NCBI RefSeq assembly: GCF_030052995.1
Contig: NZ_JASJPW010000005.1
Span: 71,001 to 135,000 of the forward strand
From: Gemmobacter sp. 24YEA27
GTDB taxonomy: Bacteria; Pseudomonadota; Alphaproteobacteria; Rhodobacterales; Rhodobacteraceae
Direction of reading: 5' to 3'
DNA length: 64,000 nt
Shown here: positions 1 through 14,687 of the stretch, one piece after another
Layout: the number at the start of each line of letters is the position of its first letter
Numbering within the stretch: position 1 is the first letter of the stretch
The notes under the pieces: generated by a model
Database searches by the model: none
What the model was told of the DNA's origin: nothing
Seen by the model: the letters and a program-made list of their open reading frames with translations, nothing else
Translations under genes and position numbers: made by a program

Positions 1-1
1 C

Positions 2-913
2 CCGGCGATTGGCGTCGGGCCGGGCAATGCCCCGGTCTATGTCGATCCCGGCTGCGATCAGATGGTTGCGGCAAGGCGGATCATCGACAGCAAGGCTTTT
101 GATAATTCAGTGCTTTGCACCAATGAAAGCGTGCTGATCTCGCAGGAGCAGGATCGCAGCCGGCTGGAACGCGCGCTGCGGGCAGGCGGGGCACATATCT
201 GCAACGCGGCCGAGGTGGCGAAACTGCGCGACTGGCTGTTCCCGGGCGGGCATCTGAACACTTCCGCCGTGGGCAAATCGGCGGTCTGGATCGCAGGGCA
301 GGCGGGCTTGCGTGTGGTGGCCTCGACCCGGGTGCTGGTGGCACCGGTGGAGCTGGTCGGCATCGACGAGCAGCTGACGAAGGAAAAGCTTTGCCCGGTT
401 CTGGGCTGGGCCCTGGTCACCAATGCTGCCCATGGTGCAAGCATGGCGCAGATGATCCTGCGGATGAGCGGGGCCGGCCATTCCGCCGCGATCCATACCG
501 ACGATCCACAGCTGGCGCTCGATTTCGCAAGCGCGCTCTCGGTTTACCGCGTGGTGGTCAATGCGCCCTGTTCCCAGGGTGCCGCCGGTTTCGCGACGCA
601 TCTGGCGCCGTCCTTCATGATCGGCACCGGCTATTTCGGCCGGTCTTCCGTGGGCGAGAATATAGGGCCGCAGCATCTGGTTCACTGGACGCGGCTGGCC
701 TGGAATTCCGACCCCGCGATGAAGCCGGGCGATCTGAGCGGCCTGCGCCCCTCTTTCGAAGGGCCGGGCGCCACGCGCCCGCAACCGGTCGCCAGTGCCA
801 TTGCGCCGCCCGCTGCGACCAGCCGGCCCGCCGGCGAGGGCGGTGTCGACCGCGACCTGCTGCGCGAGCTTATTTTGCAGGAACTCCGTGATCTGACGAG
901 GGGCCAGTCGTGA
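2..913 (+). CDS. CoA-acylating aldehyde dehydrogenase of a microcompartment (PduP/EutE-like), 5' end outside the window
   Basis: This is the C-terminal part of an acylating aldehyde dehydrogenase that oxidises an aldehyde to acyl-CoA with NAD inside a BMC lumen. The reading frame is already open at base 2 and starts with the family motif GVGPGNAPVYVD, so the gene begins upstream; the in-frame ATG at 62 is internal. The likely catalytic Cys lies in VLCTNES (bases 116-118). After the catalytic fold comes a Pro/Ala-rich linker (about 775-840) and a terminal amphipathic helix, GVDRDLLRELILQELRDL, which looks like a C-terminal encapsulation peptide. The stop overlaps the GTG start of the shell gene, indicating translational coupling. 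The family is clear; the substrate (propionaldehyde-like) is inferred from the neighbouring kinase and SDR. Confidence 0.9.
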   Translation, partial: PAIGVGPGNAPVYVDPGCDQMVAARRIIDSKAFDNSVLCTNESVLISQEQDRSRLERALRAGGAHICNAAEVAKLRDWLFPGGHLNTSAVGKSAVWIAGQAGLRVVASTRVLVAPVELVGIDEQLTKEKLCPVLGWALVTNAAHGASMAQMILRMSGAGHSAAIHTDDPQLALDFASALSVYRVVVNAPCSQGAAGFATHLAPSFMIGTGYFGRSSVGENIGPQHLVHWTRLAWNSDPAMKPGDLSGLRPSFEGPGATRPQPVASAIAPPAATSRPAGEGGVDRDLLRELILQELRDLTRGQS

Positions 914-1524
914 CCGATCTTCGTGCCTTCATCTTTATCGACCAGCTTCAGCCGCAGACGCTTGCCTATACCTCCACCTGGATGCGGGGCACCCTGCCCC
1001 GCGCCCGGATGGCGGCGCAGATCATCGAGATCGCGCCGGGTCTCGATGTCGAGGCGCTGACCGACACGGTGCTGAAAAGCGCCGAGGTGCGGGCGGGCTT
1101 TCTGGTGGTCGAGCGCCAGTTCGGCACGCTGCAATTCCATGCCCGCTCGACCGCCGAAGTTCAGGCCGGGGCGGCGGCAGCGCTGTCAGCCATGGGCAAG
1201 ACGCGCGAGGATGCGGAAAAGCCGAAGATCATGGCGTCGAAGATCGTGACGCGGATCGATGACCAGCACGCGTTTTTGATGAACCGCAACAAGACCGGCT
1301 CCATGGTTCTGGCCGGAGAGAGCGTCTACCTGCTGGAATGCCAGCCGGCGGCTTACGCGATCCTCGCCTGTAACGAGGCCGAGAAAGAGGCGGATATCAA
1401 GGTCATCGACATGCGGATGATCGGCGCCAACGGGCGACTTTATCTTGCCGGAAGCGAAGCCGATGTCCGCAATGCCCGCGATGCGGCGGAACGCGCACTG
1501 CGTGAGGCAGGGGCGGGCCGATGA
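910..1524 (+). CDS. BMC-T tandem-domain microcompartment shell protein, first copy
   Basis: This 204-aa protein has two fused BMC domains, which normally form a trimeric pseudohexamer tile in the shell facet. The N-terminal half contains FIFIDQLQPQTLAY and QIIEIAPGL; the second half contains DDQHAFLMNRN, ACNEAEKEADI and MIGANGRLYLAG. The wording is very close to what I recall of the single T-type shell protein of the mycobacterial RMM/AAUM locus. It starts with GTG overlapping the TGA of the aldehyde dehydrogenase, and its own stop overlaps the next ATG, so the shell genes are tightly coupled. A paralogue follows at 2591. Confidence in the shell role is high; pore gating cannot be judged from sequence alone. 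Confidence 0.93.
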   Translation: MTDLRAFIFIDQLQPQTLAYTSTWMRGTLPRARMAAQIIEIAPGLDVEALTDTVLKSAEVRAGFLVVERQFGTLQFHARSTAEVQAGAAAALSAMGKTREDAEKPKIMASKIVTRIDDQHAFLMNRNKTGSMVLAGESVYLLECQPAAYAILACNEAEKEADIKVIDMRMIGANGRLYLAGSEADVRNARDAAERALREAGAGR

Positions 1525-1988
1525 GCGAGCTGCGTGCCCTGATCCGCGAGTTACTGTCCGAAGAGATCGCGGCGCTGCGCGCAGAGATCCTCGGCGGCGG
1601 CCCGGCGACCGAGCGCGTCGAGGTCGCGACCGGGGCCCAGCTGACCGATTTTGCGCTGACCATCGCGCGCCGCGCGCAGGAGCCGGGATTTCTGGCAGGG
1701 CTTGAAGCCGGGCAGATCCGGTTTGCACCTGTGGCGAGCGCCCCGACGCCGGTTGCGATGCGTGACTTTGCTGATCCCGCGGCCTCCGCGCCGCCGGTGG
1801 CCAGGCTGGTCACCACCGTTCCGGCGGGGATACCCGAATTGCGCAAAACCCTTGTCACCGAGCGCGACATCGCAGCCATCGGCGAGGGCGAGACGCGGCT
1901 GCGCATCACCAGGCAGGCGCGGCTGACACCTCTGGCGGGTGACGAGGCCCGCCGCCGCGGCATCAGGATCGAAAGGACACTGGCATGA
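1521..1988 (+). CDS. BMC-associated accessory protein with N-terminal encapsulation-like helix
   Basis: This 155-aa protein has no enzyme motif that I recognise. Its first 24 residues (MSELRALIRELLSEEIAALR) form an Arg/Glu/Leu amphipathic helix resembling the C-terminal tail of the aldehyde dehydrogenase two genes upstream. A low-complexity middle follows. The C-terminal third reads LVTERDIAAIGEGETRLRI and TPLAGDEARRRGIRIER, which resembles the short conserved segment of BMC accessory proteins such as the hypothetical gene of RMM loci. It uses ATGA overlaps on both sides between shell genes, so it is made together with the shell. A luminal scaffold or cargo-organising role is inferred; no catalytic function is claimed. 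Confidence 0.75.
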   Translation: MSELRALIRELLSEEIAALRAEILGGGPATERVEVATGAQLTDFALTIARRAQEPGFLAGLEAGQIRFAPVASAPTPVAMRDFADPAASAPPVARLVTTVPAGIPELRKTLVTERDIAAIGEGETRLRITRQARLTPLAGDEARRRGIRIERTLA

Positions 1989-2254
1989 TAAGGGCGCGCG
2001 TCAGCGGCAGGCTCTGGTCCACCCGCCATATCGGCACGCTTCCCACCGGGGCGCTGCTGGAGGTTGAGACCGAAACCGGCGCAAAACTGATTGCCTTCGA
2101 CCCTCTGGGCTGTGCCGAGGGCGAGGCTGTGCTGATCACCCAGGGCTCGGTTGCAGCCGCCTGGTTTACCGAACGCGCGGCGCCGGTTGACGCATTGATC
2201 ATCGGTTCCATCGACGAAGAATCTGCCGGGAAACCGGCTGCGAAACGCAAGTAA
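1985..2254 (+). CDS. BMC-P vertex pentamer (EutN/CcmL family)
   Basis: This 89-aa protein matches the EutN/CcmL family, whose pentamers cap the twelve vertices of a microcompartment. It shows the family opening (MIRARVSGRLWSTRH), the central GALLEVETETGAKLIAFDPLG with the typical V.D.LGAG-like turn, GEAVLITQGSVAAAWF, and the end VDALIIGSIDEES. The start overlaps the previous stop in an ATGA arrangement. It is the only pentamer gene visible, so the locus has at least one full set of H, T and P shell parts. The last ten residues are Lys/Ala-rich and probably disordered. Confidence 0.93.
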   Translation: MIRARVSGRLWSTRHIGTLPTGALLEVETETGAKLIAFDPLGCAEGEAVLITQGSVAAAWFTERAAPVDALIIGSIDEESAGKPAAKRK

Positions 2255-2266
2255 GGGAGTTCTCAA

Positions 2267-2548
2267 ATGGCTAATCTTGCAATCGGAATGATCGAAACCA
2301 GGGGTTATGTGCCGGCGCTTGCAGCGGCGGATGCCATGGTCAAGGCCGCCAATGTCGAAATCGTCGCCCGTAACGAGGTCGGCGGAGGCCTGGTTTCGGT
2401 CGTGGTGCGCGGCGATGTCGGCGCGGTGAAGGCCGCGACCGAGGCCGGGGCCGAGGCCGCGGCCCAGATCGGCGAAGTGACCGCCGTCCATGTTATCCCG
2501 CGCCCGCATGGCGATCTCGCAAAGCATTTCGACGCGCTTAAGGCCTGA
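2267..2548 (+). CDS. BMC-H hexameric microcompartment shell protein
   Basis: This 93-aa single-domain BMC protein (Pfam BMC, PduA/CcmK type) builds the hexagonal facets of the shell. It has the canonical opening [20 protein letters not shown], then KAANVEIV, the pore-loop region [19 protein letters not shown], and the end [13 protein letters not shown] good ribosome binding site (aagggag) precedes the ATG. It is separated by only 12 bases from the pentamer gene. Length and motifs fit the family; it is the only BMC-H in this window, and a second could lie upstream of base 1. Confidence 0.95.
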
Positions 2549-2590
2549 GCCGCGGCGGCCTCTTACAGAGACCCAGATAAGGATTGAGGT

Positions 2591-3214
2591 ATGACAGAGC
2601 TTCGCGTCTATCTTCCCATCGAGGATCTGCAGCCCCAGTTCGCGGCGTATCTGTCCTCGCCCACCCGGGCGAGGGGATATCCGCCCTTCCGGGGGCAGAA
2701 CTCGCTGATCATCGAGGTCGCGCCGGCTCTGGCGATCCACCGTGTCACCGATCTGGCGCTGAAGGCCGCCCCCGAAATGGAGCCGGGTATTCTTTATACC
2801 GAACGTCAGTTTGGTTTGCTGGAATTGCACGCTGACCGGATGGAGGATCTGACGGCTGCGGGCGAGGCGATCCTTGCCGGAATCGGCGCAAAACCCGATG
2901 ATCAGATGCGCCCGCAGATCCTGTATCACGATATCATCGAGGATCTGTCGGACCAGCATGCGATCATCCTCAACCGCTCGCGCGACGCCTCGATCCTGGT
3001 GCCGGGGGTTGCGCTGCTGATCTACGAAATGGCTCCGGCGCTTTTTGCCTGCGTGGCGGCGAACGAGGCGGAAAAGGCGGCCCCCAATGCGATTATCAAT
3101 GATGTACAGATGATGGGCGCAACCGGACGGCTTTTCATGTCCGGCACCGCCGAAGACATGCGGATCGCGCGTGACACCATCACCGCAAAACTGGAGGCGA
3201 TCACCGGACGATAG
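2591..3214 (+). CDS. BMC-T tandem-domain shell protein, second, divergent copy
   Basis: This 207-aa protein is a paralogue of the shell protein at 910. They share the LQPQ opening, IIEVAPAL, ERQFGLLELHA, SDQHAIILNRS, AANEAEKAAPNAI and MMGATGRLFMSG. It differs in the first pore region (SSPTRARGYPPFRGQN instead of a short Arg-rich loop), so the two tiles probably have different pores or partners. As I recall, characterised RMM loci carry one T-type gene, so the duplication is unusual. It ends the shell block, and a short hairpin follows before the transporter genes. Confidence 0.9.
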   Translation: MTELRVYLPIEDLQPQFAAYLSSPTRARGYPPFRGQNSLIIEVAPALAIHRVTDLALKAAPEMEPGILYTERQFGLLELHADRMEDLTAAGEAILAGIGAKPDDQMRPQILYHDIIEDLSDQHAIILNRSRDASILVPGVALLIYEMAPALFACVAANEAEKAAPNAIINDVQMMGATGRLFMSGTAEDMRIARDTITAKLEAITGR

Positions 3215-3219
3215 GCAAA

Positions 3220-3234
3220 AGGGCCGAAGGCCCT
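3220..3234 (+). other. Small GC hairpin between shell and transporter genes
   Basis: Arms agggcc and ggccct flank a GAA loop six bases after the stop of the second BMC-T gene. There is no T-run, so this is more likely an mRNA-stabilising or processing hairpin than a terminator. It could set different levels for shell and transporter messages. Confidence 0.35.
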
Positions 3235-3295
3235 CACTCAGGCCCGGGAGATGGATCAACCATCCGGGAGGCACCACCAACAAGGGAGACAGAAG

Positions 3296-4426
3296 ATGAT
3301 TACGAGACGTCAGTTCTCGCTGGGGGCGGCCGGTTTGGCTGGTCTTTCGGCGTTTTCGATGCCGGGCCGTGCGCTCGCAGACCGCAACAATCAGCTCAAT
3401 ATCCTGTGCTGGGAAGGCTATAACTCGGATACGGTGCTGAACCCGTTCCGCACGGCGCATCCCGGTGCCACGGTGCGCGCCGAAAGCGGCACCTCGGACC
3501 CCGAGATGGTCAACCGGCTGCGCGCGGGCGAAATCGGAACCTGGGATCTTATCAATGTCAATCAGCCCTGGGCACGGGGCGAGCTGAGTCGTGACAACCT
3601 GATCAGACCGCTGAACAAAGAGCGTTTCCTGCCCTGGTTCGACAAGATGACGCCGGAATTTGCCAGACCCTATGCGCTGGCTTTTGGCGAGAACGGTGAT
3701 CTTCTGGGCCTGCCGCAGCGCTACGGGCCGTTCTCTTTCGTGGTCAATACAGACAAGATCAGCCAGGAAAGTGCCGAGGAACAGGGCTGGAACCTGTTCT
3801 TTGATCCGGCGATGAAGGGCCGCTATGGCCTTCTGACCTATGACAACTGGAATGTGATCCATCTCTGCCTTGCCGCCGGACTTGATCCGTTCCGGCCGGT
3901 CGAGGGCGCCGATGCCGAAAAATTCGCCGAGACCTGCAGGCAGATCGTCGCCGGGGCACGGATGATGACCGATGATCTGGTGGCGATGAACACCGCGCTG
4001 ATCAATGGCGAGATCGACGCTTATTTCACCGGCGGTACCTATACCGCTTCGCCCGCCCGGTATGACGGGGCGACCTTCGTGCGCGCGATCACGCCGCGCA
4101 GCGGACCGGTCGAGGGCAAGGGTGGCGTTGTCTGGGTCGAGCTGACCTCGGCGGTGAACAACCCCGATCCCTCGTCGCTGGCCGAGGATTTCCTTGAATT
4201 CGTGCAACAGCCCGAAATCTGCAAGGCCGTGGCGTTTTCTGAGGGCACCTACAACCCGATTGCCCAGATGGGCAATCCCGAGGTCATGGCGCTGTTCGAC
4301 GACGAGATGCTGGAAGCGATCCAGTTCGACACCCTGGAAGACGAGCTGTCGCGCTGTCTCGAATTCGATGTCGTACCCTCTTACGACGCCCTGCTTGCGA
4401 CCTATGTCGCGGCAAGACGCGGCTGA
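3296..4426 (+). CDS. Polyamine/amino-alcohol-type ABC transporter substrate-binding protein (PotD-like)
   Basis: This periplasmic solute-binding protein (about 376 aa) belongs to the spermidine/putrescine (PotD/PotF) family. The start chosen is the ATG at 3296, preceded by aagggag; an upstream in-frame ATG at 3251 would add residues with no signal-peptide character. The N-terminus has a twin-arginine signal (TRRQFSLGAAGLAG) ending near ALADRNN. Mature motifs include LNILCWEGYNSD, GLPQRYGPFSFVVNTD and DAYFTGGTY, typical of PotD-type proteins. It begins a transporter set embedded in the BMC operon, so its ligand is probably the amino-alcohol or amine degraded in the compartment; that is inference. 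Confidence 0.9.
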   Translation: MITRRQFSLGAAGLAGLSAFSMPGRALADRNNQLNILCWEGYNSDTVLNPFRTAHPGATVRAESGTSDPEMVNRLRAGEIGTWDLINVNQPWARGELSRDNLIRPLNKERFLPWFDKMTPEFARPYALAFGENGDLLGLPQRYGPFSFVVNTDKISQESAEEQGWNLFFDPAMKGRYGLLTYDNWNVIHLCLAAGLDPFRPVEGADAEKFAETCRQIVAGARMMTDDLVAMNTALINGEIDAYFTGGTYTASPARYDGATFVRAITPRSGPVEGKGGVVWVELTSAVNNPDPSSLAEDFLEFVQQPEICKAVAFSEGTYNPIAQMGNPEVMALFDDEMLEAIQFDTLEDELSRCLEFDVVPSYDALLATYVAARRG

Positions 4427-4445
4427 GGCCCCGGCTTCAGCCATT

Positions 4446-4470
4446 CTGCCGGGCGCTCTCTGCCCGGCAG
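4446..4470 (+). terminator. Hairpin after the binding-protein gene, probable attenuator
   Basis: Arms ctgccgggc and gcccggcag flank a 7-base loop and are followed by tctttgctttccctt. This could be a weak intrinsic terminator or a 3' stabiliser. Such elements often raise binding-protein expression over the membrane components encoded downstream. Confidence 0.5.
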
Positions 4471-4502
4471 TCTTTGCTTTCCCTTAAAATCTGGAATGGA
4501 CG

Positions 4503-5591
4503 ATGGTTGCTCAGCCCTTCGTGCGGATCGAGAATGTCACCAAACGCTTCGGTCGCTTTACTGCGCTTGACCGGATCAGCCTCGATATTGCCGAGGGAGA
4601 ATTTCTGACCATCGTCGGCCCTTCGGGCAGCGGCAAATCCACCCTGATCCGGCTGCTGGTCGGCATTGACGACGTGTCTGACGGCACGATCAGTCTGAAC
4701 GGCACCCGCATAGACACCATGCCCGCGAACAAGCGCCCGACCTGTATGGTGTTCCAGTCGCTTGCTCTGTTCCCGCATATGAGCGTCGGCAGGAATATCG
4801 AATTTCCGCAAAAGCTGAAAAAGGTGACGCCAGAAGCGCGCAAGGCCCGCACGCTGGATCTGCTGCGGCTGCTGCGATTGCCGGAAGAGTATTATGGCAA
4901 GATGATCAGCCAGCTTTCGGGCGGCGAACGTCAGCGGGTCGCCCTGGCGCGGGCACTGGCCTTCGATCCGCAGATCATTGTCTTTGACGAGCCCCTGTCG
5001 GCGCTGGACTACCGGCTGCGGAAAACCCTGGAAAAAGAGCTGAAAGACCTGCACGCCCGCACCGGCAAGACCTTTGTCTATATCACCCATTCGCTGGAAG
5101 AGGCGATGGTGATGTCTGACCGCATCGCCATCATGAAGCAGGGCCGTTTCGAGCAGATCGCCGTGGCCGAGGAGATCTATTCCCGCCCGGTCAGCCGTTT
5201 CGTCGCCAGCTTCATGGGCGAGGTCAATCTGTTTGAAGCGCGCGAGGATAACGGGTTGGTCCGCTGGAAGGACCCGGGCGTCACCGCCGCCCCTGGCGCG
5301 CTGACCCTGCCGCAGGGCTGGCGCGGTGCGCTGATGGTACGACCCGAGCTGCTGCGGTTCATCGGCGATGGTATGTCTGCGGATTTCACCCTTTCCGGCA
5401 ATGTGGTGGCCGAATACGCGCTCGGCTCCCGCATCCAGTATTCGGTCGAGACCGGTGCCGGGACACTGATCACGGTTGAGCGGCCCTTTGAGGCGCGGCT
5501 TGCCTCGGGCACCGGCACGCCCGTCACCCTCGGCTGGGACCGGGACGCGGTCCATCCGATCCCTGAGGAGGTGGATCATGCACAGGCTTGA
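4503..5591 (+). CDS. ABC transporter ATP-binding protein (PotA-like)
   Basis: This 362-aa ATPase subunit belongs to the PotA/spermidine class and powers the importer. It has Walker A GPSGSGKST (near residue 40), the Q-loop MVFQSLALFPHM, the signature [15 protein letters not shown], Walker B IIVFDEPLSALD, and the H-loop YITHSLEEAMVM. A C-terminal regulatory TOBE region of about 110 residues follows, including GEVNLFEA and LMVRPELLRF. It overlaps the next permease gene by 14 bases, so the two are translationally coupled. Length and architecture are standard. Confidence 0.93.
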   Translation: MVAQPFVRIENVTKRFGRFTALDRISLDIAEGEFLTIVGPSGSGKSTLIRLLVGIDDVSDGTISLNGTRIDTMPANKRPTCMVFQSLALFPHMSVGRNIEFPQKLKKVTPEARKARTLDLLRLLRLPEEYYGKMISQLSGGERQRVALARALAFDPQIIVFDEPLSALDYRLRKTLEKELKDLHARTGKTFVYITHSLEEAMVMSDRIAIMKQGRFEQIAVAEEIYSRPVSRFVASFMGEVNLFEAREDNGLVRWKDPGVTAAPGALTLPQGWRGALMVRPELLRFIGDGMSADFTLSGNVVAEYALGSRIQYSVETGAGTLITVERPFEARLASGTGTPVTLGWDRDAVHPIPEEVDHAQA

Positions 5592-6432
5592 GGGACGGCT
5601 TGGCTTTCTGAGCGGCCTGCCGATCATCGTTCTGCTGCTGCTGGCCTTCATCATGCCGCTTTTCGTGGTGGCGGGCTTCGCCATCATGCCGCAAAAAGTA
5701 TTCGAGCTGACCCATCTCCCCGATTTTTCCTCTTTCGCGGTGATCTGGGAACAGGGCTATTACCGTTCGCTGCTGCGCTCGCTGGGGCTTGCCCTGATGA
5801 CCACGGTGATCCTGTTCATCGTCTGCTGGCCGCTGGCTTACGGCATGGCGAAGGTCTTCGGACGCTTTACCATCGTAATCACCCTGGCGGTCGTGCTGAT
5901 CCTTTTCGTGTCCGAGAATATCCGTCTGTTCGGCTGGAGCCTCTCTTTGATGAAGGGCGGATTGTTGGAGGGCTATCTGCGTTCGCTGACCGGGCTGAGC
6001 TTCGAGACACCGCTTTATGACTGGCCGGTGATCGTCTTTGGCATGGCCTATGTCTATTTCCCCTTCATGCTGTTTCCGCTGGCCCAGGGCATCAGCCTTG
6101 TCCCGGACGATGCCCGCCTTGCCGCCTCGGATCTTGGCGCGAGCCCGGCGCGCATCCTGTTCGAGATTGAAATGCCGCTGGCCGCACCCGGCATCATGGT
6201 GGGAAGCCTGCTGACCTTCGTCCTCTCTGCCGGTGCGGTAGCCGAGGCAAAGCTTTTGGGCGGGCGCTCGGTTGTGGTGCTGACCGATGATGTCGAAAGC
6301 GCCTTCACCTTCGCGCAGAACTGGCCGCTCGGATCGGCTCTGTCGCTGATGCTGATCGTCATTGTCGCCCTTCTGGTGCTGGTGCCGGTCAGCCGCGTAA
6401 ACCTTGATGCGATCATGGGGAGGAAACCATGA
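5578..6432 (+). CDS. ABC transporter permease (PotB-like)
   Basis: This 284-aa inner-membrane permease has six predicted transmembrane segments. It carries the EAA loop DLGASPARILFEIEMPLAAPG that docks on the ATPase. The start at ATG 5578 (MHRLEGRLGFLSG) follows gaggaggtgg, a strong ribosome binding site; longer upstream readings in this frame run antisense-like through the ATPase gene. The stop overlaps the next permease start in an ATGA arrangement. It belongs to the PotB/spermidine permease class and would pair with the following gene as a heterodimer. Confidence 0.92.
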   Translation: MHRLEGRLGFLSGLPIIVLLLLAFIMPLFVVAGFAIMPQKVFELTHLPDFSSFAVIWEQGYYRSLLRSLGLALMTTVILFIVCWPLAYGMAKVFGRFTIVITLAVVLILFVSENIRLFGWSLSLMKGGLLEGYLRSLTGLSFETPLYDWPVIVFGMAYVYFPFMLFPLAQGISLVPDDARLAASDLGASPARILFEIEMPLAAPGIMVGSLLTFVLSAGAVAEAKLLGGRSVVVLTDDVESAFTFAQNWPLGSALSLMLIVIVALLVLVPVSRVNLDAIMGRKP

Positions 6433-7222
6433 GAACGGTCTCCAACACCACCCGCATCGCGCTATATCTTTATGGGTTGCTGATCCTGCTGGTGCTTTAC
6501 CTGCCGCTGGTTTCGGTCGGCTTCGCATCGGTCTCGAAGGCGCGGTATCTGAGCTTTCCGGTCAACCGCTATACCAGTGAATGGATGGTCCAGGCGGTGA
6601 CCAGCCCGAACGTCCACGCCCTGGTGCTGACCTCGCTGAAGATCGCGGTGCTGGTGACCCTGCTGTCGATGATCCTCGGCTTCTTCGGTGCCCTTGCTTT
6701 CGCGCGTTTCCAGTGGCGGTATCGCCCGCTGTTCCAGAAGCTGATCCTGCTGCCGATTTTCTTCCCGCAAACGGTGCTGGGGCTTGCGCTGCTGATCTGG
6801 TTTTCGGCGCTTGGGGTTCAGCCCAGCTGGAAGACCGCCGTGATCGCGCATCTGGTCTGGATTGCGCCCATCACCACGCTGATCATCGCGATCCGCGCCT
6901 ATGCCTTTGATCCGGCGCTGGAAGAGGCGGCGCGGGATATGGGCGCCTCGACCTTTACAATCCTGCGCGAGGTGACGCTGCCCCTGCTGATGCCGGGGGT
7001 GATTTCTGCGGGGCTCTTCGCCTTTCTGCTGTCCTGGGGGAATTTCCCGCTCTCGCTCTTCACCACAGGGCTCGATTCAACTTTGCCCAAATGGCTCTAT
7101 GCCCGGATGGTCTCCGGCTACACGCCGCAGATCCCGCGCTTGGGGTTCTGTCGGTCGCCGGCTCGGCCACGCTGATGCTGATCGGGCTTCTGGTGTTGCG
7201 CTGGACACGAAAACGCGCCTGA
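6429..7222 (+). CDS. ABC transporter permease (PotC-like) with apparent C-terminal frameshift
   Basis: This is the second permease of the importer, with the EAA loop DMGASTFTILREVTLPLLMPG and the usual six-helix layout. The literal frame runs into an Arg/Pro-rich tail and stops at 7175. Adding one base after 7136 (ccg|cgc read as ccg gcg) restores GVLSVAGSATLMLIGLLVL, the expected last helix, ending at the TGA at 7220-7222. So one base appears to be missing in this sequence. If the deletion is real, the last membrane helix is lost and import may fail; if it is a sequencing error, the importer is intact. Confidence 0.82.
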
Positions 7223-7260
7223 CGCCGCGATAAAATCATAAAAATCAGGGAGAAAAACAG

Positions 7261-8040
7261 ATGCTGACGTCATTGCAGGGCCGGAGTGTCATCGTTACCG
7301 GCGGATCAAAAGGGATCGGGCGCGGCATCGCGCGGGTCTTTGCCCGGGCCGGTGTGAAACTGACCATTGCCGGGCGCGACAAGGTGGCGCTGGCGGCGGC
7401 CGTGGCCGAGATGAACGAGGCAGGGGCGACAGCCCGCAGCGCCGTCTGCGATGTGAGCGATTACGACCAGGTGCAGCGCATGGTCGATGAGGCGGCCGAA
7501 GCCCAGGGCGGGCTGCATGTGATCTGCGCCAATGCCGGATCCTTCCCGCAGGTGAAGATGGTCGATATGTCGCCCGCCGAATGGGACCAGATGATGGCGA
7601 ACAACCTGCGCTCGACCTTCCTCTGCGTCAAAGCCGCGATCCCGCATTTCGAACGGGCCGGCAAAGGCCGCGTGGTGGTCACCTCTTCGATCACCGGGCC
7701 GGTGACAGGCTATCCGGGCTGGTCGCATTACGGCGCGTCGAAGGCCGGGCAGCTTGGTTTCATCAAGACCGCCGCGATGGAGCTGGCGCGCTACAACACC
7801 ACGATCAACGCGGTGATGCCGGGCAATATCGTGACAGAGGGGCTTGAGGGGCTGGGCGCGGATTACCTGAAAACCATGGCCGCATCGATCCCGCTGAAAC
7901 GGCTGGGTGCCGTCGAGGATATCGGCAATGCGGCGCTGTTTTTCGCATCGGATGAGGCGGCCTATATCACGGGGCAGCAGATCATCGTCGATGGGGGGCA
8001 GATCCTGCCGGAATCCCTGGAAGCCATCGAGTCGATCTGA
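7261..8040 (+). CDS. SDR-family oxidoreductase, probable amino-ketone/amino-alcohol dehydrogenase of the BMC pathway
   Basis: This 259-aa classical short-chain dehydrogenase has the cofactor motif TGGSKGIGRG at the N-terminus, the NAG motif in CANAGSF, a catalytic Ser in TSSITG, and Tyr157/Lys161 in YGASK. The C-terminus has the common YITGQQIIVDGGQILPE. In the AAUM microcompartment loci of actinobacteria an SDR is proposed to interconvert aminoacetone and 1-amino-2-propanol; the same placement beside an APH kinase suggests that role here. Cofactor choice is not certain. It sits 38 bases after the transporter and 12 bases before the kinase, so it is probably co-transcribed. Confidence 0.88.
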   Translation: MLTSLQGRSVIVTGGSKGIGRGIARVFARAGVKLTIAGRDKVALAAAVAEMNEAGATARSAVCDVSDYDQVQRMVDEAAEAQGGLHVICANAGSFPQVKMVDMSPAEWDQMMANNLRSTFLCVKAAIPHFERAGKGRVVVTSSITGPVTGYPGWSHYGASKAGQLGFIKTAAMELARYNTTINAVMPGNIVTEGLEGLGADYLKTMAASIPLKRLGAVEDIGNAALFFASDEAAYITGQQIIVDGGQILPESLEAIESI

Positions 8041-8051
8041 GGGAGGGGCAC

Positions 8052-9059
8052 ATGGCCGGAGAGCAAATGCCGCTTCAGGAGGTATTGAAGCATCTGGAGC
8101 GCCTTGCGAATGACTCGCTGTCCCTTTGGCCGGTGCCGGAGGGGGCGACGGCGCGGCTGATCAATGTCTCGGAAAACGCGACCTATCTGGTCGAGGCCGG
8201 GGCGTATCGATCGGTCCTGCGCATTCACCGCCCGGCCTATCACACAAAACGCGGTATCGGCCAGGAACTGGCCTGGGCGCAGGCACTGGCCTCAAGCGGA
8301 CTGGTGCAGACGCCGCCGCCGATTGCCGGGCTGAACGGCGCTCTGGTCCAGGAGGGCCATAGCCCCGGCCTGCCCGATCCGCGTTTCATGGTGATGTTTC
8401 AGTTTGCCGAAGGCCGCCAGCCCGATGAGAACGAGGATCTGGTCGGCCCGTTTGAGCGCCTCGGCGCGATTGCGGCCCGCACTCATCTGCATTCCATGTC
8501 CTGGCCGCGCCCCGAGCCGCTGGAGCGGCTCCGCTGGGATTACGATGCCGTTTTCGGGCCAAAAGCGAACTGGGGCGACTGGCGCGCCGCGCCGAACGTC
8601 ACGCCTGGGCTGCAGGCGGTGCTGGAGGAGGTGGAACTGACGATCCGCCGCCGGCTGTCGGAGTTTGGCCAGGGACCGGAGCGCTATGGCCTGATCCATG
8701 CCGATATGCGGCTGGCAAACCTGCTGATTGAAGGTGAGAACACCACGCTGATCGACTTCGACGATTGTGGCCAGGGCTGGTATCTTTACGATTTTGCAAC
8801 CGGCGTCAGTTTCATGGAAGATCACCCCCAGGTGCCTGCCATGCGCGCCGCCTGGGTGCGCGGCTATCGCAGTGTCCGCCCGCTTTCCGATGCCGAAGAG
8901 CGCGAGATTGACACCTTCATCATGTTGCGCCGCATGGCGCTGCTGGCCTGGATCGGCAGCCATATCGAGGCCCCCGAACCCCAGGCCATGGCGCCGGATT
9001 TCGCCCGGGTCTCGGCCGAGCTTGGCCGCAGCTATCTGGCGCAGTTCGCCACGCAATAA
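8052..9059 (+). CDS. APH-fold small-molecule kinase, probable 1-amino-2-propanol kinase
   Basis: This 335-aa aminoglycoside-phosphotransferase/homoserine-kinase-like protein has the catalytic loop HADMRLANLL (His216, Asp218, Asn223) and the metal-binding IDFDDCG (Asp235-Asp237). The N-lobe has SENATYLVEAG and SVLRIHRP, the usual nucleotide-binding strands. In the mycobacterial AAUM locus the homologous family member is an (S)-1-amino-2-propanol kinase. Its product would then be split by a PLP-dependent phospho-lyase to an aldehyde, the substrate of the BMC aldehyde dehydrogenase. The lyase gene is not in this window. Substrate assignment is by context; the fold is certain. Confidence 0.85.
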   Translation: MAGEQMPLQEVLKHLERLANDSLSLWPVPEGATARLINVSENATYLVEAGAYRSVLRIHRPAYHTKRGIGQELAWAQALASSGLVQTPPPIAGLNGALVQEGHSPGLPDPRFMVMFQFAEGRQPDENEDLVGPFERLGAIAARTHLHSMSWPRPEPLERLRWDYDAVFGPKANWGDWRAAPNVTPGLQAVLEEVELTIRRRLSEFGQGPERYGLIHADMRLANLLIEGENTTLIDFDDCGQGWYLYDFATGVSFMEDHPQVPAMRAAWVRGYRSVRPLSDAEEREIDTFIMLRRMALLAWIGSHIEAPEPQAMAPDFARVSAELGRSYLAQFATQ

Positions 9060-9138: not shown

Positions 9139-9896
9139 TCAGGCCACCCGGCCATCGGCGAAGATCGCAGCAAGGATTTCGGCCTCGAATGCGGCCAGCC
9201 GCGCGTCTCCGCGTGGGCGTGGATGCGGTATGTCAATCACCACGTCATGCGCAATCCGGCCTGCGTCCAGCACGATCACCCGGTCGGAAAGCGCCACCGC
9301 CTCGGCCACGTCATGCGTTACCAACACGGCGGTAAAGCCGTCGTCACGCTTCACCTGCAGGATCAGATCCTGCATCACCAGCCGCGTCAGGGCGTCCAAG
9401 GCCCCCAGCGGCTCATCCAGAGCCAAAAGGCGGGGGCGGCTGACCAAAGCGCGCGCAAGGGCTACTCGCTGGCGTTGTCCGCCCGACAGGCTTGACTGCC
9501 AGTCCCCTGCTTTGCCCGGCAGCTGCACCTCGTACAGCGCGGCCTCGGCGAGGTCCCGCCGTGCGCGCGCGGCCCCCCTCCGGGTAAGCCGAGACTGACA
9601 TTGTCGATCACACTGGCCCAGGGCAGCAGTCGCGGTTCCTGAAACATCAGCCGGATCGACCCCAACTGATCCGCAACCGGCGCACCGTCCACCAGTACCT
9701 CGCCTCGCGACGGCGCATCCAGCCCGGTCAGCAGGCGCAACAGCGTGCTTTTTCCGCATCCCGACTTACCGACAATGGAGAGGAACTGACCCGCCCGGAT
9801 CGTCAGATCCAGCCGTGACAGGACTGTGTTGGCGCCAAAGCTCTTCTCGACCCCGGCCAATACGACCTCAGCCCCCTGCCGGTTATTGTCGGGCAT
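9139..9896 (-). pseudogene. ssuB: Sulfonate-type ABC transporter ATPase (SsuB-like), interrupted by an apparent one-base deletion
   Basis: This ATPase for an aliphatic-sulfonate importer would be about 252 aa. The N-terminal frame gives VEKSFGANTVLSRLDL, Walker [10 protein letters not shown] and the Q-loop [14 protein letters not shown]. The other frame gives [15 protein letters not shown], Walker [13 protein letters not shown] and [13 protein letters not shown]. The frames switch near 9580, within a run of six G on the coding strand (after NVSLGLPGG); one extra G would restore a continuous protein. The start at 9896 overlaps the permease stop by 14 bases. Everything else looks intact, so a sequencing error is as likely as real inactivation. 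Confidence 0.8.
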
Positions 9897-10710
9897 AAGC
9901 GGGATTCCAGGCCAGGGCACGGGTTTCCAGCGCGCGGGTAATCATGTCGGCGAGTTTGCCCAGCAGCGCATAGAGCAGAATGGACAGCACCACGACATCC
10001 AGCTGCATGAATTCGCGTGCCTGCATCGCCATATAGCCAAGGCCCGCACTGGCGGCCAGGGTTTCGGCGACGACAAGCACGAACCACATCAGGCCCAGAG
10101 CATAGCGCAGGCCGACGAATATCGTGGGCAGCGCGCCCGGAAATATCACCCGCAGAAAAAGACTGCGCTGTGACATTCCATAGGCGCGCCCCATCTCGAT
10201 CAGCTGGGGATCAACGTTGCGGACCCCGTGGAACGTGTTGATGTAGATCGGAAAGAACACGGATATGGCAACAAGGAACAGCCGCGCGGTTTCGCCCACC
10301 CCGAACCAGATGATCACCAGCGGGATCAGCGCCAGAATAGGAATGTTGCGGATCATCTGAACGGTGGTGTCGGTCAGCAGGGCCGACCGTTGCGATAGTC
10401 CGTTCGACAGCCCCAGGGCAAATCCCAGCAGGCCACCGATGGCCAGCCCGGCAAAAGCACGCAGCGCCGAAACCCCCAGATGCAGGAAGAGTTCGCCCGA
10501 AAGTGTCATTGTCCATGCCTTCGCCAGCACGGTGCTGGGTCTGGGCAGGATGCGGGTGGAGACCAGTCCGATATGGCTGCCGACCTCCCAGATCACCAGC
10601 ATCAGGACCGGAAGCAGGAAAGGCAGCCAGATCTCGGGTCGCAGGCGCCAGCCAGACCGTTTGGCCAGCTTGCTCTCTGCGAGGTCGTAGGATTGGTCCA
10701 CTACGGTCAT
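9883..10710 (-). CDS. ssuC: Sulfonate-type ABC transporter permease (SsuC-like)
   Basis: This 275-aa permease of the nitrate/sulfonate/taurine family has about six transmembrane helices after a charged N-terminus (RSGWRLRPEIWLPF). The EAA loop is GRAYGMSQRSLFLRVIFPGALP. Other family motifs are IPILALIPLVIIWFG and YMAMQAREFMQ. It forms an operon with the SsuB-like ATPase and diverges from the matching binding-protein gene at 11160, an arrangement that suggests a shared control region at 10711-11159. Confidence 0.9.
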   Translation of the reverse strand: MTVVDQSYDLAESKLAKRSGWRLRPEIWLPFLLPVLMLVIWEVGSHIGLVSTRILPRPSTVLAKAWTMTLSGELFLHLGVSALRAFAGLAIGGLLGFALGLSNGLSQRSALLTDTTVQMIRNIPILALIPLVIIWFGVGETARLFLVAISVFFPIYINTFHGVRNVDPQLIEMGRAYGMSQRSLFLRVIFPGALPTIFVGLRYALGLMWFVLVVAETLAASAGLGYMAMQAREFMQLDVVVLSILLYALLGKLADMITRALETRALAWNPAYARQ

Positions 10711-11159
10711 CTCGGCCCTTTGCAGATTCGGTGTCTCCCGGGTGCGGCCCGGACAGACGCCATTGCCCGATCAGCGTCGGGTTTATTGAACCGCAGGGTG
10801 GGGCATATTCCCCGGTCGGCCATTCTCTATTGCCCTTTCCGGAGAGCGCGGGCTTTGCGTTTTTTCGGGCCTGGACAGCAACATTCTTCTCAAATGCCCC
10901 GGCGGGTGCACAGGCACGGCAGGGGCGGGCCATTGTCGTTGCTGGTGATATGGAAAGGATGGTCAAAATAAATCTGTTATCTTTCCGATATTTAGGAGAT
11001 CGCATCTCTTTCGCGGCAGATCGTGACCAGACTGACATCGCCTGCGCGCGCATCTGCCTGGCTCCGGCTGTGCTCCGGCTTTTAAAATACGACCGCGAAA
11101 GTAGTTTATTTTCAGAAGCGGCCGCTGGTGCCGCGAACGAGACAGGTGGGAGATGAGAA
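10711..11159. promoter_or_regulatory. Divergent control region between ssuCB-like and ssuA-like genes
   Basis: These 449 bases lie between two divergent transport genes and must hold both promoters. Base composition drops toward AT-rich stretches at about 10960-11000 and 11080-11115. I see no convincing gene here and no clear operator dyad. A ribosome binding site (ggtgggagatgagaa) precedes the binding-protein gene. Confidence 0.5.
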
Positions 11160-12098
11160 ATGACGCTTAACAGACGGGACTTCGGACTGGTGGCAGCGGC
11201 CGCCCTTACCGCCTCGGTGCTGCCTGCGATGGCACAAACGAAAGAGATCCGTGTCGGCTTTCAGAAATACGGCACGCTTGTGCTGCTGAAAGGTCGGGGT
11301 CTTCTGGAGGAGAAGCTGGGCAAGCTGGGCTATTCGGTGACATGGCTGGAATTCGCCGCCGGTCCGCAGATGCTTGAGGCGCTGAATGCGGGCGCCCTGG
11401 ATATCGCGCAGACGGGCGAAGCGCCGCCTATTTTTGCTCAGGCTGCCGGGCCGCTGCTTAACTACCTGGCGTTCGAACCACCTGCGCCAAAGGGTGAGGC
11501 AATTCTTGTGCCTGCAGACAGCCCTGTCGCTTCGGTCGCCGATCTGAAGGGCAAGAAGGTGGCGCTGAACAAAGGGTCGAATGTGCATTTTCTCCTGGTC
11601 CGGGCCCTGGAAGCCGCGGGGCTGGCCTATGAAGATATTGAGACCGTCTTCCTGCCCCCCGCCGATGGCCGTGCTGCCTTTGAAACAGGCGCAGTCGATG
11701 CCTGGGTGATCTGGGATCCTTTCCAGGCGGCGGCCGAAACTGCGCTTGGGGCCAGGGTTCTGGCCAATGCCGAGGGCCTTGCGCCAAACTACCAGTTCTA
11801 TTTTGGCGAGCGCAGCTTCCTTGAGGGAAATACCGCAGTGGTGCCCGAGCTGATCGCGGCAATTGCCGAAACCGGGGCCTGGATCTCCTCGAACCCTGAC
11901 GCAGCAGCGGCGGAGCTGTCGCCTTCAACCGGGATTCCCGAGGATGTGCTGAAGATCGCCATCGGACGGCAAAGCTTTGGTGTCGGGCCGATCACAGACC
12001 AGGTCGTAGCCGATCAGCAGGCCGTGGCCGATACGTTCCACAAACTGGGCTTGCTGCCAAAGCCGATCACGGTTGCCGACGCCGTGTTCAGGGTCTGA
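11160..12098 (+). CDS. ssuA: Sulfonate-type ABC transporter substrate-binding protein (SsuA-like)
   Basis: This 312-aa periplasmic binding protein belongs to the SsuA/TauA/NrtA family. A twin-arginine signal (NRRDFGLVAAAAL) ends near AMAQTK. Mature motifs include IRVGFQKYGTLVLLKGRG, NAGALDIAQTGEAPPIFAQAA, VALNKGSNVHFLLVRALE and DAWVIWDPFQAAAE, which are diagnostic of aliphatic-sulfonate binders. It is divergent from ssuC and ssuB, so together they make a full importer. No desulfonating monooxygenase (SsuD) lies directly beside it; the flavin monooxygenase at 14688 belongs to a separate operon. Confidence 0.9.
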   Translation: MTLNRRDFGLVAAAALTASVLPAMAQTKEIRVGFQKYGTLVLLKGRGLLEEKLGKLGYSVTWLEFAAGPQMLEALNAGALDIAQTGEAPPIFAQAAGPLLNYLAFEPPAPKGEAILVPADSPVASVADLKGKKVALNKGSNVHFLLVRALEAAGLAYEDIETVFLPPADGRAAFETGAVDAWVIWDPFQAAAETALGARVLANAEGLAPNYQFYFGERSFLEGNTAVVPELIAAIAETGAWISSNPDAAAAELSPSTGIPEDVLKIAIGRQSFGVGPITDQVVADQQAVADTFHKLGLLPKPITVADAVFRV

Positions 12099-13776: not shown

Positions 13777-13778
13777 TT

Positions 13779-14548
13779 AAGCTACAGCCTGTCCCTTCCG
13801 GTCGGTTTCGATCCTGTTGAAGTCGACCATGGCGTGGGGCAACCAGCCAGGGGCAATGTGTGGCCGCCGATGGTTGTAGAAGGTGATCCGAGATCCGATG
13901 GCGGCTTTTACGTGCGACCCGGTCTCCCGGGCCTGCTGGTAGACGCATTCATATTTCATAGACCGCCACAGGCGCTCTATGAAGACATTGTCGGTGCACC
14001 GCCCCTTACCGTCCATCGAGATGCGGGTACCGACGCGCGTCAGCCGGTCGGTCCAGGAGAAGGACGTGAACCTGCTGCTCTGATCGGTATTCATGATTCC
14101 GGGCGGCCAAAGCGGTGGATGGCCTCCTTCAGTATCCCGGCGCAGAAGTCTGCCGCAAGGGTGCTGGATATGCGCCGGGCCAGAGCCTTGCGGATGAACC
14201 AGTCCATGATGGCGACCAGATACAGGCCCTCCGCTGCATCGGCAGATAAGGGATGTCGGCACACCAGACCTGGCATGCAACGACCGGCCCGTCTCCTCGT
14301 CCAACTCCACCGCATGCTTCTTGCCGCCGTGCTCGAAGATCTCCGCTGCCCCGTCGAGCAGCGATTTCTTCCCCTGATGGATCAACGTCGGATGCACGCC
14401 GTAATCGGAGGCCAAATCCGACATCCTACGCTCGCCCTTTACGGCTTCCAGTGCCACGCCAACCGTGAAACCAGCGTCATGGTTCCTGCGCTTCCGCATG
14501 CCCGATCTCCTCATCCCTGGAGAACAGCAACCGTCAGATCGTAGCTTC
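13779..14548 (-). mobile_element. Internally deleted IS3-family element
   Basis: The minus strand reads an OrfA-like start (MRKRRNHDAGFTVGVALEAV, VHPTLIHQGKKSLLDGA) and then jumps to the end of OrfB (DNVFIERLWRSMKYECVYQ, ITFYNHRRPHIAPG). The central catalytic region is shortened and shifted. Related sequences containing agctac lie at both ends (13780 and 14541), suggesting that the whole element is about 770 bp against 1.2-1.4 kb for intact relatives. It abuts the right target duplication of the IS5 copy, so elements have inserted next to each other. It is not functional. Confidence 0.7.
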
Positions 14549-14687
14549 CGTCTTTGTCCGAATTTCGGGGAATAGCTCAATCAGATACGAGCCGCCAAAT
14601 CGCAGTCTTGTTTCCAGCTCTTACTGCCATGGAACAGAGCGTCAGGTCCGACGCCCTGACGCCACTGTGCCGCGCGATCTGGCCATC

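Follow-up and report, generated by a model that had tools for sequence, protein, structure and literature searches.

The closest described relatives of the locus reported here are bacterial microcompartment (BMC) loci of the Rhodococcus and Mycobacterium microcompartment (RMM) class, including RMM1 of M. smegmatis and Rhodococcus, the aminoacetone utilization microcompartment (AAUM) or Aut type. Axen 2014 places RMM1 and RMM2 only in Actinobacteria. Ravcheev 2019 extends the Aut type to one genome of Firmicutes and two of Proteobacteria, Verminephrobacter eiseniae being named; it gives the Aut clusters a permease and the proteobacterial cluster no kinase. Asija 2021 adds an RMM2 locus in Paracoccus yeei. 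RMM loci are puzzling, as no locus gene obviously regenerates NAD+ or CoA (Axen 2014).

We analysed a 64,000-nucleotide stretch of Gemmobacter sp. 24YEA27, an alphaproteobacterium (the window; bases 71001-135000 of the 157,587-base contig NZ_JASJPW010000005.1, in a genome of 5.08 Mb in 12 contigs). At its left end lies an RMM/AAUM-type locus in which the shell genes are followed by genes for an ATP-binding cassette (ABC) importer, a short-chain dehydrogenase/reductase (SDR) and a kinase of the aminoglycoside phosphotransferase (APH) fold. With a probability of roughly 0.58, we propose that the locus encodes an RMM/AAUM-type metabolosome in which uptake, reduction and phosphorylation would take place in the cytosol, and elimination and oxidation to propionyl-CoA in the shell. 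Proteobacterial RMM loci are already in print; the conserved importer block was not found in print. A literature search of listings and abstracts returned no description of it, and the term 'ABC transporter' is absent from the main text of both Axen 2014 and Sutter 2021, although a listing in a supplement remains possible.

Gene order and shell type

The listed genes of the window are open frames on the plus strand, extending from base 1 to 9059. Together with two genes to the left of the window they give the order DeoR-type regulator (divergent), class III pyridoxal phosphate (PLP) enzyme, acylating aldehyde dehydrogenase (ALDH), BMC-T1, accessory protein, BMC-P, BMC-H and BMC-T2, followed by the block of PotD-, PotA-, PotB- and PotC-like genes, SDR and kinase. 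Coordinates below are those of the window unless prefixed.

L003:13115-13900, minus strand: DeoR-type regulator, outside the window, beyond the PLP enzyme gene and divergent from it
L003:14052-15332 (G000:C5:69052-70332; -1948 to -668 counted from window base 1), plus strand: class III PLP enzyme, proposed aminopropanol-phosphate phospho-lyase, outside the window
1..913 (whole gene L003:15345-16913), plus strand: 3' part of the acylating aldehyde dehydrogenase, 522 aa in all (family profiles)
910..1524, plus strand: BMC-T1, double-stacked trimer type, MSM0275 counterpart (solved-structure matches, tree)
1521..1988, plus strand: accessory protein with an N-terminal encapsulation-peptide-like helix and a C-terminal motif weakly like PF15953 (PDU_like)
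1985..2254, plus strand: BMC-P vertex protein, MSM0273 counterpart (profile, solved-structure match)
2267..2548, plus strand: BMC-H facet protein, MSM0272 counterpart (profile, solved-structure match)
2591..3214, plus strand: BMC-T2, MSM0271 counterpart (solved-structure match, tree)
3296..4426 (likely start 3296; longest frame from 3251), plus strand: PotD-like substrate-binding protein with an RR-type signal
4503..5591, plus strand: PotA-like ATPase (profiles; the NCBIfam PhnT2 model scores nearly equal)
5578..6432 (likely ATG at 5578; longest frame from a TTG at 5476), plus strand: PotB-like permease 1
6429..7175, plus strand: PotC-like permease 2, C-terminal end frameshifted relative to its relatives
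7261..8040, plus strand: SDR, counterpart of the presumed mycobacterial S-1-amino-2-propanol dehydrogenase (6ci8/6ci9)
8052..9059, plus strand: APH-fold kinase, counterpart of the presumed mycobacterial (S)-1-amino-2-propanol kinase (6ef6)

A first-pass annotation, made from the letters of the window, had named the dehydrogenase, two BMC-T, BMC-P, BMC-H, accessory protein, PotABCD-like importer, SDR and APH-fold kinase, and all belong to the families it gave. It had described the genes as co-directional and mostly overlapping. They are co-directional, and 4-base overlaps occur at four junctions (ALDH/BMC-T1, BMC-T1/accessory, accessory/BMC-P and permease 1/permease 2); the remaining junctions are short gaps, with a further possible overlap between the ATPase and permease 1 that depends on the permease start. 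The annotation had also placed a class III aminotransferase-like gene just upstream of base 1. Such a gene is present, 12 bases before the dehydrogenase gene, whose start lies 655 bases to the left of the window.

Best matches to the shell proteins were sought among sequences of solved structures. MSM0275 was the best match of BMC-T1 (268 bits, with the next at 162), MSM0271 that of BMC-T2 (285 bits, next 151) and MSM0273 that of BMC-P (96 bits, next 26). The closest natural protein to BMC-H was MSM0272, by the narrowest margin (123 bits, next natural protein 107.5), and the tandem fusion 6ner gave 180 bits over two copies. In a BMC-T tree of 51 rows, from which MSM0271 was left out, T1 grouped with MSM0275 and R. 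jostii T1 (support 100/99), and T2 with R. jostii T2 (100/99), a long branch whose placement is unsure according to a warning of the tree program; four carboxysome or other BMC rows fell apart from both T1 and T2. The shell proteins thus group with RMM rather than with another BMC type.

Among solved structures, 6ef6 matched the kinase best (266 bits, against 52 for the next entry), and 6ci8 and 6ci9 matched the SDR best (311 and 310 bits); the SDR match is less telling because 3pk0 (285) and 3rih (271) are close behind. Entry 6ef6 is titled only 'Aminoglycoside phosphotransferase', and 6ci8 and 6ci9 only '3-oxoacyl-[acyl-carrier-protein] reductase'; we take them to be the aminopropanol kinase and the aminopropanol dehydrogenase of M. 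smegmatis. The possibility that the two enzymes act on unrelated substrates was thereby checked by homology only.

The locus accordingly has, by sequence, four orthologous shell proteins, an acylating ALDH with an encapsulation helix, an aminopropanol-type kinase and SDR, and a class III PLP enzyme upstream. By best solved relatives, the M. smegmatis and Rhodococcus RMM1/AAUM loci contain the same four shell proteins, ALDH, SDR and kinase, and plasmid pRHL2 of R. jostii RHA1 carries the same order ALDH-T1-accessory (hypothetical)-P-H-T2, with a 145 aa protein in the accessory slot; the PLP enzyme of pRHL2 is only 24% identical to that of the present locus. Judged from the closest solved relatives, the BMC-T tree and the R. 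jostii gene order, membership of the RMM/AAUM class by shell and enzymes is firm, as the first-pass annotation had proposed for an alphaproteobacterium.

The locus departs from the described subtypes in its ancillary genes. RMM1 has an amino acid/GabP-type permease, according to Axen 2014 and Ravcheev 2019, and a GntR regulator, whereas an ABC importer and a DeoR regulator stand here. Permease and regulator being ancillary, we regard the locus as an RMM variant and not as RMM1 in the strict sense. RMM2 occurs in the same host group (Paracoccus yeei TT13, Asija 2021), but the present locus is without the diol dehydratase, of which the genome has copies only on contigs 2 and 4. A search of the genome for the PduL-type phosphotransacylase (PF06130) gave no match at E 0.001, which sets the locus apart from complete-core metabolosomes of the propanediol or ethanolamine utilization (PDU/EUT) type. 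Of 14 genomes checked for the same enzyme, none gave a match above cut-off and G586 gave a weak one below it; this fits the description of RMM.

A carboxysome assignment was rejected: the CcmP-like NCBIfam label of both BMC-T proteins merely reflects the nearest model, and RMM proteins give far higher scores. Searching the whole genome for PF00936 returned two matches, both in the RMM locus. The closest named relative of BMC-T1 (98% identity) comes from Xinfangfangia pollutisoli, listed under Paracoccaceae, which is thus a probable near relative of the host. BMC-T1 is sporadic, being found at E 1e-40 in 6 of 198 family-sample and 11 of 385 class-sample genomes, with the present genome counted in each.

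The importer-SDR-kinase block with and without shell genes

An alignment scan of a genome collection with BMC-T1 gave 244 relatives, of which the 80 best were kept. Gene presence at these loci was judged by blastp thresholds, and many of the loci end at contig ends. The gene set recurs whole or in part in these 80 loci of other genomes and is therefore more than chance; the relatives also rule out a BMC locus limited to this host. Most of the loci are labelled alpha- or gammaproteobacteria or just Proteobacteria. The metagenome-assembled genome labels Comamonas, Sulfurimonas and Neomarinimicrobiota may be binning errors; L062, L063 and L065 give nearly identical identities. Shell-side genes were seen in nearly all loci (ALDH and T1 in 80; accessory protein, P, H and T2 in 79 each; PLP enzyme in 76), and the DeoR gene in 34. 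For the block the counts were 65 each for SDR and kinase, 62 for each permease, 59 for the binding protein and 58 for the ATPase.

Where at least 8.4 kb was available on each side of BMC-T1 (52 loci), all six block genes were found in 45. In 64 of the 80 loci both SDR and kinase are present, with the kinase alone at L041 and the SDR alone at L029. In the 54 loci where the PLP enzyme, ALDH, T1, T2 and all six block genes were seen, the block lies on a single strand, and its order (binding protein, ATPase, permease, permease, SDR, kinase) is kept in 53, L051 having the permeases swapped. Its position relative to the shell genes varies, with 26 loci having it downstream, 25 upstream and three on the other strand. 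At one of the 54 (L025) a shell-side frame is counted inside the block, as judged by frame ends. A check free of this selection used the 16 family- and class-sample genomes with BMC-T1 (E 1e-40), 11 of which also have the binding protein (E 1e-50). We conclude that the importer block is the rule and not a local accident.

Homologs of the binding protein (E 1e-50) were found in 14 of 198 family-sample and 15 of 385 class-sample genomes, 28 genomes in all, and wider stretches were read from 13 of them, one of which (L122) is a shell locus. At L117 and L118 a kinase (42%) and a class III enzyme are encoded divergently from the importer genes and an SDR 68-75% identical to that of the window; L115 groups the importer with a kinase (45%) and a class III enzyme. 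The importer genes of the nine other stretches stand in other or unresolved company, with no kinase match. In a plasmid collection the same 13 Agrobacterium records matched binding protein and kinase, and two were read. Plasmid At of A. fabrum C58 (ATU_RS25070-25115) encodes a kinase, class III enzyme, fabG (opposite strand), PotD-like protein, ATPase, two permeases, isochorismatase-like protein, hypothetical protein and DeoR regulator; CFBP5877 is arranged similarly. The C58 pathway thus has the same importer family, a FabG-like SDR, a kinase and a DeoR regulator as the present locus, but no shell genes in the 25 kb read. Identities between C58 and the window are 60% for the SDR, 54% for the binding protein, 43% for the kinase and 26% for the class III enzyme, which in C58 is of the L117 (PRK06148/PRK06149) type, unlike that of the present locus.

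Importer, SDR and kinase therefore occur together with or without a shell, and by sequence the three form a conserved unit apart from the shell genes. The wider binding-protein family serves other compounds too, since a 45% relative in Antarctobacter adjoins a glutamine-synthetase-like gene.

The importer had been called polyamine-type, and as a family name this holds: by profile, E. coli PotABCD belongs to the same fold family of four subunits. We compared 27 binding proteins (that of the window, 20 shell-linked and six not) with E. coli PotD, an alignment that is distant (31 bits). The residues named here are PotD positions that we take to line the polyamine pocket. All 27 retain W34, Y37 and W255 and have Glu in place of D257. 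E171 is Asn in 27 of 27, and the S83, Y85, W229 and Y293 positions are changed. The PotD model gave 31.5 bits against a cut-off of 582, so the sequence falls outside the PotABCD polyamine importers as that model defines them. An amine ligand other than spermidine is plausible, and a polyamine compartment was rejected as a first reading, several PotD pocket positions being changed in the compared proteins.

That the importer is nevertheless an ordinary polyamine importer, adjacent to the shell genes by chance, we consider highly improbable. The best NCBIfam models are indeed PotA, PotB, PotC and PotD, and W34, Y37, W255 and mostly Asp168 are retained, but the scores lie far below the PotABCD cut-offs, the five pocket positions listed above are changed in all 27 proteins, with the reservation that the alignment is distant, and chance would have to account both for adjacency in 45 of 52 well-covered loci and for the company of SDR and kinase in shell-less loci. 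For alpha- and gammaproteobacteria, including marine genera such as Roseovarius, the block offers a candidate for the import of a small amino alcohol or amino ketone.

Some RMM shell loci without the block have other neighbours. L008, L011 and L058 carry a double-ATPase sugar-type importer (assigned by profile at L008 and L011, and at L058 only from an ATPase frame of 510 aa), along with a related amidase. The amidases of the L008/L058 group are 70% and 56% identical to that of L011, and the kinases of L011 and L058 are distant. Sugar-type importer and amidase possibly form another upstream cassette feeding the same shell. In the RMM locus of Rhizobium sp. L1K21 (L041:2587-6066), an amino acid permease stands with an alpha/beta hydrolase and a kinase of the block type (55%) in place of the ABC importer.

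Proposed pathway and proposed enzyme location

In the pathway that we propose, the substrate taken up by the PotABCD-like importer would be aminoacetone or 1-amino-2-propanol. Aminoacetone would be reduced in the cytosol to (S)-1-amino-2-propanol by the SDR, and the amino alcohol would be phosphorylated there by the kinase. The phosphate ester would enter the shell, where the class III PLP enzyme would form propionaldehyde by eliminating ammonia and phosphate, and the aldehyde would be converted to propionyl-CoA by the acylating dehydrogenase. Methylmalonyl-CoA mutase is used on propionyl-CoA; the genome has two matches to its family, which is common and therefore weak evidence.

The step that most needs weighing is the elimination, as the first-pass annotation had predicted a phospho-lyase. 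Among family models the PLP enzyme was nearest to ArgD, PigE and putrescine aminotransferase, with the ArgD model best. In all 72 full-length shell-linked PLP enzymes, that of the present locus included, the EPxQGExG motif reads E(T/S)IPAT(Y/A)G, and in the C-terminal motif Gln replaces the Arg (VLQFKPG, or ILQFKPG in two). By analogy with ornithine aminotransferase, we assume that this Glu and Arg bind 2-oxoglutarate in ArgD-type enzymes. Their loss speaks against ArgD-type transamination with 2-oxoglutarate, but does not prove a lyase by itself. Seven class III proteins of the same genome served as controls. ArgD (L125) and L126 keep both residues (EPIQGEGG with VLRLLPA, and EPVQGEGG with VVRFLAP); L127 keeps the Arg only, and L128, L130, L131 and L132 are without the pair.

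According to the schemes of Axen 2014 and Ravcheev 2019, the PLP enzyme would instead be a true transaminase making methylglyoxal or lactaldehyde. Besides the proposals of these two papers, the best family models are transaminases. Only two of the seven controls keep both residues, so the loss is not lyase-specific; four of the seven are likewise without the pair, and the residue data would be compatible with transamination to another amino acceptor, such as pyruvate. We nonetheless consider a transaminase unlikely. Glu and Arg are replaced in 72 of 72 proteins, though the nearest family, represented in the same genome by ArgD, keeps both; a transaminase leaves the kinase without a clear role; and in the shell-less loci the partner of the kinase is an enzyme of the PRK06148/PRK06149 type. 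Because of the residue loss in an enzyme of an ArgD-like family, the kinase and the shell-less pairings, a lyase is favoured over the schemes of Axen 2014 and Ravcheev 2019. If so, this clade of PLP enzymes may have changed from transamination to a lyase function.

The R. jostii RMM enzyme is nearer to the L117 type (45% identity to L117 and 46% to C58, against 24% to the present enzyme), and the C58 and CFBP5877 enzymes are 56-60% identical to that of L117 (C58, 56%). Protein searches for an actinobacterial counterpart of the present enzyme found only proteobacterial sources among the named rows of the best 120 matches, most rows being nameless. In R. jostii RHA1 the last 31 residues of the class III enzyme (L084:16294-17901) are the same as those of its ALDH, helix included. 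The gene adjoins a duplicated T1-accessory-P-H stretch, and the enzyme is of the shell-less type and not that of the present locus. The enzyme looks like cargo there, though the shared end may be a by-product of local duplication.

The termini of the encoded proteins were then compared for targeting signals, leaving out rows with unclear letters at the ends. Of 77 dehydrogenases, 69 carry an encapsulation-peptide-like helix motif within their last 40 residues, and of 78 accessory proteins, 63 carry it within their first 40. Neither terminus shows it in 76 PLP enzymes, 63 SDRs and 65 kinases, and shuffled termini gave about zero matches. On the accessory C-terminus, 14 of 24 members matched PF15953 with E values of 5 or less (best 0.00041), the match in the window (0.024) being below cut-off. 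From the distribution of the motif, the R. jostii enzyme and the independence of the block from the shell genes, we infer that the PLP enzyme and dehydrogenase lie inside the shell and the SDR and kinase outside. The latter two would work outside because the block travels apart from the shell genes and because they have no targeting-helix motif. Such a location would be a concrete answer to the cofactor-regeneration puzzle of RMM loci.

Several further observations weigh against the proposed pathway. The PLP enzyme falls outside the ethanolamine-phosphate phospho-lyase family (6tor, 108 bits; 4ppm, 163), although it may still be a lyase. Without a helix motif (0 of 76), its place in the lumen is deduced indirectly, and the helix-bearing R. 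jostii enzyme belongs to another subfamily. The helix pattern was fitted after the ALDH and accessory termini had been read, and other signals could escape it. In the binding proteins, D168 is kept in the window, in 19 of 20 shell-linked and in five of six other proteins. Seven of the 52 well-covered loci are without all or part of the block: L008, L011 and L081 have none of it, L041 the kinase only and L047 SDR and kinase, and L044 and L013 have three and five genes, both at locus edges. Among less covered loci, L020, L034 and L058 are without the block, and L083 has the binding protein only, on the other strand. Finally, five of the 16 genomes with BMC-T1 gave no binding protein at E 1e-50 (G176, G185, G279, G357 and G439). 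The BMC-T of G439, included in the family count, is only 39% identical and is probably of another type.

The same chemistry could serve a substrate one carbon shorter, with ethanolamine being imported, phosphorylated and cleaved to acetaldehyde, which the dehydrogenase would convert to acetyl-CoA. The ALDH piece scores best with acetaldehyde dehydrogenase models, and the locus on the R. jostii plasmid encodes an ethanolamine permease and gave no SDR match above 45 bits. This version would, however, leave the SDR without a role, yet the SDR is present in 65 of the 80 loci, with the kinase in 64, and recurs in shell-less loci at 60-75% identity. In addition, the best solved relatives of kinase and SDR are aminopropanol enzymes, and a diol dehydratase homolog, found in 16 of the 80 loci, fits propionaldehyde. 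We therefore regard ethanolamine as an improbable substrate.

Diol dehydratase turns 1,2-propanediol into propionaldehyde. Its presence in these loci fits the aminopropanol route because both give the same aldehyde. A shell mainly for 1,2-propanediol, with the dehydratase encoded elsewhere and the amino alcohol block secondary, would also accommodate the dehydratase on contig 2 of the same genome and those of the 16 related loci, as well as the growth on 1,2-propanediol reported in Asija 2021 for Paracoccus yeei with RMM2. But the contig 2 copy is unlinked, lies beside separate importer frames and, as judged by eye, has no targeting helix, and no dehydratase was seen in the other 64 of the 80 loci, many of which end early at contig ends. 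We judge this explanation very unlikely.

A broader reading of the aminopropanol pathway is possible, and we hold it tentatively, at less than even odds. RMM shell, PLP enzyme (as a lyase) and ALDH could form a general short-chain-aldehyde module served by exchangeable upstream cassettes, with only those two enzymes inside. The cassettes would be the importer-SDR-kinase block, the diol dehydratase (16 of 80 loci) and the sugar-type importer with amidase (a few loci). If true, the general module answers the question of which enzymes an RMM shell encloses.

Dehydratase clusters and neighbouring features

The dehydratase-bearing loci, which are RMM2-like and from Proteobacteria, are L013, L017, L019, L021, L023, L025, L033, L037, L040, L044, L048, L049, L056, L057, L073 and L075. 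In the Gemmobacter genome, the contig 2 cluster (G000, L155:4151-12698) contains genes for the large and small subunits of diol dehydratase together with an SDR 61% identical to that of the window; its neighbours, by eye, are an iron-type alcohol dehydrogenase-like frame and ABC importer frames. A second diol dehydratase on contig 4 (G000, L156:8800-16700), with a kinase and a PRK06149-type class III enzyme, is broken into several frames and adjoins sugar-type ABC importer frames.

Permease 2 of the window has 248 aa, against 264 in L004. Alignment to relatives places a one-base gap near 7135 that shifts the frame, removing a conserved C-terminal stretch (window about 7135-7175). This is either a real lesion or a draft-assembly error.

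To the right of the locus, frames on both strands at 9139-12098 resemble a sulfonate/taurine-type ABC importer (ATPase, permease and binding protein), and a transposase-like frame lies at 13777-14580, both as judged from translations.

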